From assembly GCF_001408515.1 (NCBI RefSeq), contig NZ_CYPR01000002.1, positions 1 through 52,185 on the forward strand: a stretch of DNA of 52,185 nucleotides. Reading direction: 5' to 3'. The notes beneath the pieces were generated by a model. It saw only the letters and a list, made by a program, of their open reading frames with translations, searched no databases and was not told the origin of the DNA. The number at the start of each line of letters is the position of its first letter. The first letter of the stretch is position 1. Shown here one piece after another: positions 40,411 to 43,138 of the stretch. The position numbers were made by a program, and so were the translations under genes. The DNA is from Jannaschia seosinensis (GTDB lineage: Bacteria > Pseudomonadota > Alphaproteobacteria > Rhodobacterales > Rhodobacteraceae).

Positions 40411-40414
40411 GCAT

Positions 40415-41920
40415 TTGCGGCATCTGCGCCTCCTGATCCCCGTTCTGGCGGGGCTTGCCGCCGCGCTTGGACAGGCGCCGTGGGGGCTTTGGTGGCTTGC
40501 GCTGCCGGCCTTCGCGGTAGGGGTTCGGGCATGCGCGCAGGCCCGGTTCCCGGCGCTCGCCGGTCTGGCATTCGGGGTCGGGTATTTCGGCCTGGCGCTC
40601 GTCTGGATCACGGAGCCGTTCCTTGTCGATCCGGAGGTGACGGCATGGCTCGCCCCCGTCGCGCTCATCGGTATCTGCCTGGGCTTCGGCCTGCTCTGGG
40701 CGCTGGCGGTGTCGCTCGGCGCGCGGTATCTGGGCGGTGCGCTTGGCGTGGCCGTGGCGATTGCGGGGGTGGAGCTGACGCGCTCCTACATTCTGACGGG
40801 CTTTCCTTGGGCCTTGCCGGGTCACGTGCTCATCGCGTCGCCCGCGCTGCCGTCGGCATCGGTGCTGGGGGCGCATGGTCTGGGCCTCGCGGTTCTGGTC
40901 GGGGCGGGGCTGGTCGCGATGTTGCGGCCGGTTCCGGTGGCGGCGGGGATCGTGCTCTGGGCCGCGCCGCTGGTGATGGGCGCGGCGCTTTCCCCCGCGC
41001 CGGAGGGCGGCGGCCCCGTCATCCGGTTGGTGCAGCCGAACGCGCCGCAGCACCTGAAATGGGATCCCGACTGGATCGGCACGTTCTGGCGCCGGGGCAT
41101 CGAGGAGACGGCGGCCGCCGACACGATCGGCCCGCCCGCCATGACGCTTTGGCCCGAAACCGCGCTTCCGGCCCTGCTGCGGCGTTCGCAAGACATTCGC
41201 CCGATCCTCGCTGCCGCTTCGGGCGGGCAGCCGGTGATGATCGGAGCGCAGCGGATCGACGATACGGGCGCGCCGCGCAACACGCTTGTCCTGCTGACCG
41301 GGCCGGAGGGAGAGATCGCCGCGCGCTACGACAAGCACCGGTTGGTCCCGTTCGGGGAATTCCTGCCGTTCCCCGATCTGTTCGCGGCGATGGGCTTCGG
41401 CCCGCTGGCCGCGCAGCTTGCGGGCACCTACCGGGCAGGCGTGGGGCCGGTCCTGATCAATGTGCCGGGTGTCGGACGGGTCCTGCCGATGATCTGCTAC
41501 GAGGCGATCTTCCCGCAGGACGTGCGCGCCGTCTCACGCGATGCGCCGCATCCGCGGGCCATCTTCCACCTGACCAACGATGCCTGGTTCGGAACCCGGA
41601 TCGGCCCTTGGCAGCATCTCGCCCTTGCCCGGCTGCGCGCGGCGGAAAGCGGGCTTCCGGTGATGCGCGCGGCCAATACCGGGATGTCGGCCGTCATCGA
41701 TGCGCGGGGAAAGGTGCTGGCGCGGCTGCCGCTGGGGGAGGCGGGGCATCTCGATGCCGCGCTGCCGCCCGCACTGCCGCCGACGCCCTATCTCGCCACC
41801 GGGGACTGGCCCGCGCTGGCGGTGATCGGGCTGCTTGCGGCGCTGCTTGGCGTGCGAAAGCGGTTGAAGCGCCCGGCAACCCGACGTAGCGAGAATTACG
41901 GCGTGCCAACGGCTTCCTGA
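40415..41920 (+). CDS. lnt: apolipoprotein N-acyltransferase
   Basis: A 501-residue membrane enzyme that adds the third acyl chain to lipoproteins. Six to eight hydrophobic helices (about 5-190) precede a carbon-nitrogen hydrolase domain (about 205-470). The catalytic residues are Glu248 in LWPETA, Lys307 in RYDKHRL and Cys361 in MICYEAIF. The start is TTG 40415, 4 bp after the corC stop; no ATG fits in the right frame. Its last codons and stop overlap the SAM/SAH riboswitch of metK. Confidence 0.93.
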   Translation: MRHLRLLIPVLAGLAAALGQAPWGLWWLALPAFAVGVRACAQARFPALAGLAFGVGYFGLALVWITEPFLVDPEVTAWLAPVALIGICLGFGLLWALAVSLGARYLGGALGVAVAIAGVELTRSYILTGFPWALPGHVLIASPALPSASVLGAHGLGLAVLVGAGLVAMLRPVPVAAGIVLWAAPLVMGAALSPAPEGGGPVIRLVQPNAPQHLKWDPDWIGTFWRRGIEETAAADTIGPPAMTLWPETALPALLRRSQDIRPILAAASGGQPVMIGAQRIDDTGAPRNTLVLLTGPEGEIAARYDKHRLVPFGEFLPFPDLFAAMGFGPLAAQLAGTYRAGVGPVLINVPGVGRVLPMICYEAIFPQDVRAVSRDAPHPRAIFHLTNDAWFGTRIGPWQHLALARLRAAESGLPVMRAANTGMSAVIDARGKVLARLPLGEAGHLDAALPPALPPTPYLATGDWPALAVIGLLAALLGVRKRLKRPATRRSENYGVPTAS

Positions 41921-41950
41921 CGGCGCGCGTCGCATGAACACATCGGAGCA
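41901..41950 (+). promoter_or_regulatory. SAM/SAH riboswitch in front of metK
   Basis: Stem P1 is GCGTGCC (41901-41907) with GGCGCGC (41922-41928), 7 bp. Its loop AACGGCTTCCTGAC (41908-41921) closely matches the published SAM/SAH loop with AACGGCUUCCUG. After a 12-nt linker, CATCGGAGCA (41941-41950) carries the GGAG Shine-Dalgarno of metK, which can pair with GCTTCC in the loop as a pseudoknot. When SAM or SAH binds, ribosome access to metK should fall. The first 20 bases are also the end of lnt. Confidence 0.9.
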
Positions 41951-41953
41951 TTC

Positions 41954-43138
41954 ATGAATACCCGCCGGTCCTATTCGTTCACCTCGGAATCCGTTTCCGA
42001 GGGCCACCCAGACAAGGTCTGCGACCGCATCTCCGATGCCGTGCTCGACGCGCTGCTGGCCGAGGAATCCGAGGCGCGCGTCGCGTGCGAGGCCTTCGCC
42101 ACCACGAACCGCGTCATCGTCGGCGGCGAGGTCGGTCTGGCCGACAAGGCGAAGCTGCGCGATTACATGGTGCGCATCGAAGACATCGCGCGCGAATGCA
42201 TCCGCGACATCGGCTACGAGCAGGACAAGTTCCACTGGCGCGATGTCGAGGTGACGAACCTGCTCCACGAGCAGTCGGCCCATATCGCGCAGGGCGTCGA
42301 TGCGTCGAGCGGGAAGGACGAGGGGGCGGGCGATCAGGGCATTATGTTCGGGTTCGCCTGCGACGAGACCGCAGAGTTGATGCCCGCGCCGATCCTTTAC
42401 GCGCATGCCATGCTGCGGCGGCTGGCGGAGGCGCGCAAATCCGGCGCGGAGCCGACCCTGCTGCCCGATGCGAAGTCGCAGTTGACCGTTCGCTACGAGA
42501 ACGGGCGTCCGGTGGCCGTGGATTCCGTCGTGCTGAGCACGCAGCATCGTGACGAGAACCAGAGCCGGGAGGACATCCGCGCCATCGTGGAGCCCTATAT
42601 CCGCGAGGTCCTGCCCGAAGGCTGGCTGCATGACGGCACCGAATGGTGGGTGAACCCGACGGGCAAATTCGTCATCGGCGGGCCGGACGGGGATGCGGGT
42701 CTGACGGGGCGCAAGATCATCGTGGATACCTATGGCGGCGCCGCGCCGCACGGAGGCGGGGCCTTTTCGGGCAAGGATCCGACCAAGGTGGACCGGTCTG
42801 CCGCCTATGCCGCGCGCTATCTGGCGAAGAATGTGGTGGCGGCGGGGCTGGCGACGCGCTGCACGCTGCAGCTGTCCTATGCGATCGGGGTGGCCAAGCC
42901 GTTGTCGGTCTATGTCGACACCCACGGCACCGGCGAGGTCGAGGCCGAAGCCATCGAGCGGGCGGTCAGGCGGGTGATGGATCTGACGCCGCGTGGTATC
43001 CGCACGCATCTGGGTCTCAACCGGCCGATCTACCAGCGCACGGCGGCGTACGGGCATTTCGGCCGCGCGCCGGATGCGGATGGCGGCTTCTCCTGGGAGC
43101 GGACCGACCTGGCCGATGCGCTGACCGCCGAACTGTAG
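41954..43138 (+). CDS. metK: S-adenosylmethionine synthase
   Basis: A 394-residue tetrameric enzyme that makes SAM from methionine and [11 protein letters not shown] is at about 17-24; [16 protein letters not shown] is the ATP signature; [18 protein letters not shown] is the second (both typical). ATG at 41954 follows the GGAGCA of the riboswitch at 3-7 nt. The enzyme's product is the riboswitch ligand, so there is a negative feedback loop. It is convergent with ribD, 27 bp apart. Confidence 0.97.

Follow-up and report, generated by a model that had tools for sequence, protein, structure and literature searches.

A predicted SAM/SAH riboswitch upstream of metK that overlaps the end of lnt in Jannaschia seosinensis

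In the genome of Jannaschia seosinensis, lnt is followed on the same strand by metK, and the last codons of lnt run into an RNA element resembling a SAM/SAH riboswitch. Does such an arrangement make control of metK depend on translation of the preceding gene? A previous reading, made from the letters of the DNA (the sequence-only reading), had suggested that it could. It placed a SAM/SAH riboswitch at the end of lnt, assigned the left arm of its P1 helix and most of its loop to lnt codons, took RNA and protein to be under shared constraint, and proposed that ribosomes reaching the lnt stop would disrupt P1. We followed up these claims in the window (the whole 52,185-nucleotide stretch that was analyzed) and in related loci. 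The parts of the locus are:

40412..41920, + strand: lnt (apolipoprotein N-acyltransferase) open frame, read from 40412, start codon not assigned
41918..41920, + strand: TGA that ends lnt, within the aptamer loop
41898..41950, + strand: predicted SAM/SAH riboswitch aptamer (RF01727, below the gathering score)
41901..41907, + strand: P1 left arm GCGTGCC, also lnt codons
41908..41921, + strand: conserved loop AACGGCTTCCTGAC, in which lnt codons and stop take up 41908-41920 (13 of 14 bases)
41922..41928, + strand: P1 right arm GGCGCGC
41929..41944, + strand: 16-nt linker between P1 and GGAGC, with an AUG at 41934
41945..41949, + strand: GGAGC, Shine-Dalgarno sequence and predicted pseudoknot strand (from the alignment; role as described in PMC7367207)
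41954..43138, + strand: metK (SAM synthetase), 394 aa, with its ATG at 41954

The presence of a SAM/SAH riboswitch at the end of lnt was borne out, as were the coordinates assigned to it. A permissive Rfam search returned a single match, to the SAM-SAH family RF01727 (41898-41950, + strand; 35.3 bits against a gathering score of 40; E = 3e-6 for 401 bases), whereas a search of the whole window at the gathering level returned none. The covariance model search that the sequence-only reading had named as a check succeeds at permissive settings and fails at the family cut-off. Genome-wide, the window aptamer ranks first of six matches at E <= 10 (E = 6.9e-6, the next being 1.46). It lies directly 5' of metK in a Rhodobacterales host, where members of the class are expected. 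All seven P1 pairs form, the loop AACGGCTTCCTGAC agrees with the highly conserved class loop ACGGCUUCCUG, and the 3' GGAGC strand, which is also the Shine-Dalgarno sequence, can pair with the loop in a predicted pseudoknot. In host order, metK-adjoining position, P1, loop, and GGAGC, the element is thus like the Rhodobacterales SAM/SAH riboswitch as described in PMC2864571, PMC7367207, and PMC4239095. It is unlike typical RF01727 members in scoring below 40, in its 16-nt linker, in the lnt stop within the loop, and in the top of P1, where two compensated swaps give GCC/GGC instead of the consensus CAC/GUG. The low score fits these swaps together with the long linker. Folding energy compared with shuffled sequences does not single out the aptamer (z-scores 0.62 and -0.03) and was dropped as evidence; P1 was present in the predicted structure in both folding runs. 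Members of the class bind both SAM and SAH at micromolar affinity, and ligand binding by the window element is a prediction from its sequence. On these features, we identify it as a predicted new member of the known SAM/SAH class with a lineage-specific lnt overlap, so that one below-threshold aptamer finds its place in its class.

The overlap with lnt is exact. The last lnt codons read TAC GGC GTG CCA ACG GCT TCC TGA, and the frame takes in the P1 left arm together with 13 of the 14 loop bases before ending at the loop UGA, as had been claimed. The claim of shared constraint proved weak. Among the related loci described below, one other (L025) also ends lnt at the loop UGA, and the two lnt ends have only P-T-A-S before the stop in common; earlier residues differ. 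Since these four residues are spelled by the conserved RNA core, constraint appears to run from RNA to protein, and we rejected a two-way constraint. The linker AUG at 41934 opens a frame of seven codons, the TGA of which overlaps the metK start (ATGA; 41934-41957). An ATG lies between P1 and GGAGC in 113 of 198 related loci, mostly in one place (consensus AAUGGAGC, read from offsets), and its interpretation as a special upstream open reading frame was set aside.

We compared the locus with its relatives in a set of 198 loci anchored at the loop core, 21 from the genus and 177 from the family. Species are related, so that locus counts do not represent independent events. The family search found RF01727 matches in 215 of 246 genomes and none in 31, under stricter filters that may have missed weak matches. 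The other genomes with a match number 214; of these, 179 supplied 180 stretches, and 35 lie outside the counts. Three stretches were dropped: L264, with its aptamer at a contig end; L270, with a variant core missed by the pattern; and L280, a weak second match lacking the core. We found lnt upstream in 194 of the 198 loci, the exceptions being L055, L230, L233, and L236; the last also lacks metK and seems mis-anchored. An order-level search covered 61 genomes, all of the same family, and found matches in 58, with loci outside the counts. The match was absent in G273, G290, and G296, again under stricter filters that may miss weak matches. Three of the genomes lacking a match share genus g21 with G039, in which a match is present.

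Within Jannaschia, the element is present in all 20 genomes searched, including that of the window, and scores over the cut-off in 18. The two below it, the window's genome and G012, are also the two in which lnt ends at the loop UGA. P1 shows strong covariation over the 198 loci. Its seven pairs are complete in 148, and pair types change together (for example, pair 6 is A-U in 153 loci, C-G in 33, G-C in 7, and U-A in 2). The window loop AACGGCTTCCTGAC occurs in 70 of the 198 loci and its G variant AACGGCTTCCTGGC in 123. The linker is usually 11-13 nt long. Among the 196 loci with an identified GGAGC, three have a linker of at least 16 nt.

A second conserved feature lies upstream of the aptamer. 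About 50 nt before the aptamer core is a promoter-like pair of boxes, its position kept across related loci. In the window this predicted metK promoter falls inside lnt:

41864..41869, + strand: predicted -35 box TTGAAG, inside the lnt frame (position weight matrix [PWM] and family-wide motif)
41887..41892, + strand: predicted -10 box TAGCGA after a 17-nt spacer, with no T at -7; its TAG is out of the lnt frame here
41898..41899, + strand: predicted metK transcription start, 2-3 nt before P1 (spacing as in PMC8407463)

Between 62 and 12 nt ahead of the core, 173 of 177 family loci and 17 of 21 genus loci contain the pattern TTG-N20..23-TA. In five control windows taken further upstream, it is present in 2, 3, 6, 27, and 11 of the 177 family loci and each time in 0 of the 21 genus loci. 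A stricter pattern, TTGAC followed by TA, precedes the core in 147 of 177 family loci, against 1, 0, 0, 0, and 0 in the five upstream control windows. When 149 loci are aligned on TTGAC, about 95% have T and A at 23 and 24 nt 3' of this anchor, which corresponds to a 17-nt spacer. A T at -7 is absent in all 194 loci. The window pair TTGAAG-N17-TAGCGA ranks second among 104306 positions on both strands, scored with a PWM built from 159 sites in other genera (the genus itself excluded) that is biased toward TTGA and TA because its training set was picked for them. The window's top PWM site is at about 27897 on the - strand (16.04, against 13.95 at the metK site). Within the genus the -35 box is looser, with TTGAC in one of 21 loci, and L007, L022, and L026 have a PWM score of -0.09, no better than noise.

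Alphaproteobacterial sigma-70 promoters, as described in PMC8407463, have a TTG triad, a 17-nt spacer, a weak -10 box lacking the T at -7, and a start six bases on. The window pair resembles them in the triad, the spacing, and the missing T. It is unlike them in being predicted from the DNA letters and in that its boxes also supply stop codons to the gene upstream. With +1 placed 7 nt past the end of the -10 box, within the 6-7 nt typical of such promoters, the predicted start lies a median of 5 nt before P1 over the loci and 2 nt before it in the window. Since this start is 5' of P1, a metK mRNA beginning there would carry no lnt frame. The sharing of stop codons and promoter predicts a start site that could be tested with existing 5'-end data.

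Where, then, does lnt stop in the other loci? No fixed end relative to the aptamer was seen: across the 194 loci with lnt, the stop lies anywhere from -299 to +9 of the loop core. The -35 box holds it in 97 loci and the -10 box in 53. In 29 loci it precedes the -35 box, and in 10 it lies within the spacer; two loci have it between the -10 box and P1, and three inside the aptamer. The lnt stop codon is therefore made of promoter letters in 150 of 194 loci, as the TGA of the -35 box (97) or the TAA or TAG of the -10 box (53). This is a small, clear case of one DNA stretch serving as protein end, promoter, and RNA sensor. A second set of 80 loci, which overlaps the main set, yielded the core in 70, where the lnt stops were placed as follows (29 in the -35 box, 21 in the -10 box, 10 upstream, 9 in the spacer, and 1 after the -10 box); in some of the other 10, the script probably misplaced the lnt stop. 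TTG and TA at exactly 17 nt are found in 94 of 97, 50 of 53, 25 of 29, and 10 of 10 loci of the four main stop groups in the order given above, and in four of the remaining five, compared with 20 of 776 controls. Because the pattern is kept irrespective of where lnt stops (ahead of it, within it, or beyond it), lnt codons do not account for it.

The three stops inside the aptamer are those of the window and L025 at the loop UGA, and a third in the left arm of P1. The third belongs to L208, from outside the genus, in which the lnt stop TAG overlaps the arm. In the genus, the outcome follows from the codon register of the -35 box: 18 of the 21 loci have register 1, two have register 2, and the window alone has register 0. 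Register 2 ends lnt at the TGA of the -35 box, register 1 at the TAG of the -10 box (which ends lnt in 17 of 21 genus loci), and register 0 at the loop UGA. The window's lnt tail has a 10-nt gap relative to 11 congeners, and its other register reads a congener-like tail. L025 reached the loop differently: it keeps register 1, and its -10 box is replaced by CAGACG, with loss of the TAG. In a tree built without L026 (cut lnt) and five outside loci with cut metK, the window and L025 fall in different clades, the 13-row clade of the window having support of 98/97. Different clades and different routes are most simply read as two separate overlap events.

We consider it likely that metK in the window has its own promoter and a message headed by a SAM/SAH riboswitch, the whole unit lying within the last codons of lnt, with the overlap as a by-product. 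The metK message would start after lnt, with the aptamer at its very 5' end. In the class mechanism described in PMC2864571 and PMC7367207, ligand stabilizes the pseudoknot that hides GGAGC, and metK translation goes down. Because loop, P1, and GGAGC are kept, the mechanism can be carried over to the window: with SAM or SAH bound, the loop would pair with GGAGC, hiding the ribosome-binding site and lowering MetK translation. Past its last helix, the Lnt tail would be free to drift, ending at a stop offered by fixed regulatory DNA, namely the TGA in TTGAC of the -35 box or the TAA or TAG of the -10 box; a frame missing both would end at the loop UGA. The overlap thus looks like species-level drift of the lnt stop codon. 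A message with its predicted start at P1 should be unaffected by lnt translation. What looked like coupling of a riboswitch to translation is more readily understood as a promoter-aptamer unit lying in the end of the preceding gene. A literature search in an open-access library gave no paper describing the lnt overlap or a metK promoter within lnt.

One observation leans toward a small effect of lnt. Of 594 cases in which a frame was entered at random immediately 5' of the -35 box, 179 would extend into or beyond the aptamer, compared with three of 194 for lnt. Inherited frames may account for this rarity; avoidance of translating the aptamer, if doing so carries some cost, is also a possible cause. 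If ribosomes crossing the aptamer would harm metK control, the control region could act as a stop trap for lnt: promoter boxes and loop would hold stops in different registers, ending lnt before it crosses, and the loop UGA would be a last guard that adds an lnt-dependent input on read-through transcripts. We regard this elaboration as unlikely.

Full coupling, in which metK is expressed mainly from an lnt-containing transcript and ribosomes ending at the loop UGA melt P1 and keep GGAGC free, is improbable in our view. In this model, translation of lnt would adjust the riboswitch or supply ribosomes to metK, 34 nt further on. The rarity of lnt in the aptamer could be taken to mean that such crossing matters, and the lnt stop does lie in the loop; the footprint of a terminating ribosome, about 30 nt, suffices for both P1 arms. 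Precedent exists in the Mycobacterium tuberculosis B12 riboswitches of metE and ppe2, which likewise have a coding frame in or beside the leader, and in which translation of an upstream open reading frame modulates the riboswitch target, as described in PMC11260477. There, however, the frame is part of the leader and has a measured effect, whereas the frame in the window is the closing part of a complete gene upstream, and the metK message is predicted to begin after that frame. Against coupling, the arrangement occurs in three of 194 loci (two at the loop UGA, one in the P1 left arm) and arose by two routes in the genus, a conserved promoter-like pair stands between the lnt body and the aptamer, and lnt ends at varying distances from the aptamer. 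The proposal that metK control depends on lnt translation thus found no support: the stop position varies, the promoter-like pair is kept, and the predicted mRNA is free of lnt. Coupling with a small lnt effect is possible on transcripts reading through from lnt, in which P1 would be covered by a ribosome that terminates at the loop UGA.

The overlap could also be in part a sequencing or assembly error, the true lnt end being the -10 TAG, at which the gene stops in 17 of 21 genus loci. The other register reads ...AKAVEAPGNPT up to that TAG, much like NAVERTGERT in L020 and NGVEPVRKAT in L023, and the genus search of 20 genomes found no second sequence from the same species. However, the gap against the 11 congeners is 10 nt and not one base (although 9 + 1 is possible), the adjoining corC-like, ybeY-like, phoH-like, and metK frames are intact, and L025 has its own overlap in another assembly; we hold such an error to be improbable. 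That the aptamer is degenerate or dead, with ligand control lost, is very improbable: the score below the gathering cut-off and the long linker would fit, but seven of seven P1 pairs with compensated changes, the common loop, and GGAGC are all kept.

The comparison also revealed a duplicated arrangement within the genus, with G017 holding two lnt-aptamer-metK junctions (L022 and L026) on different contigs.
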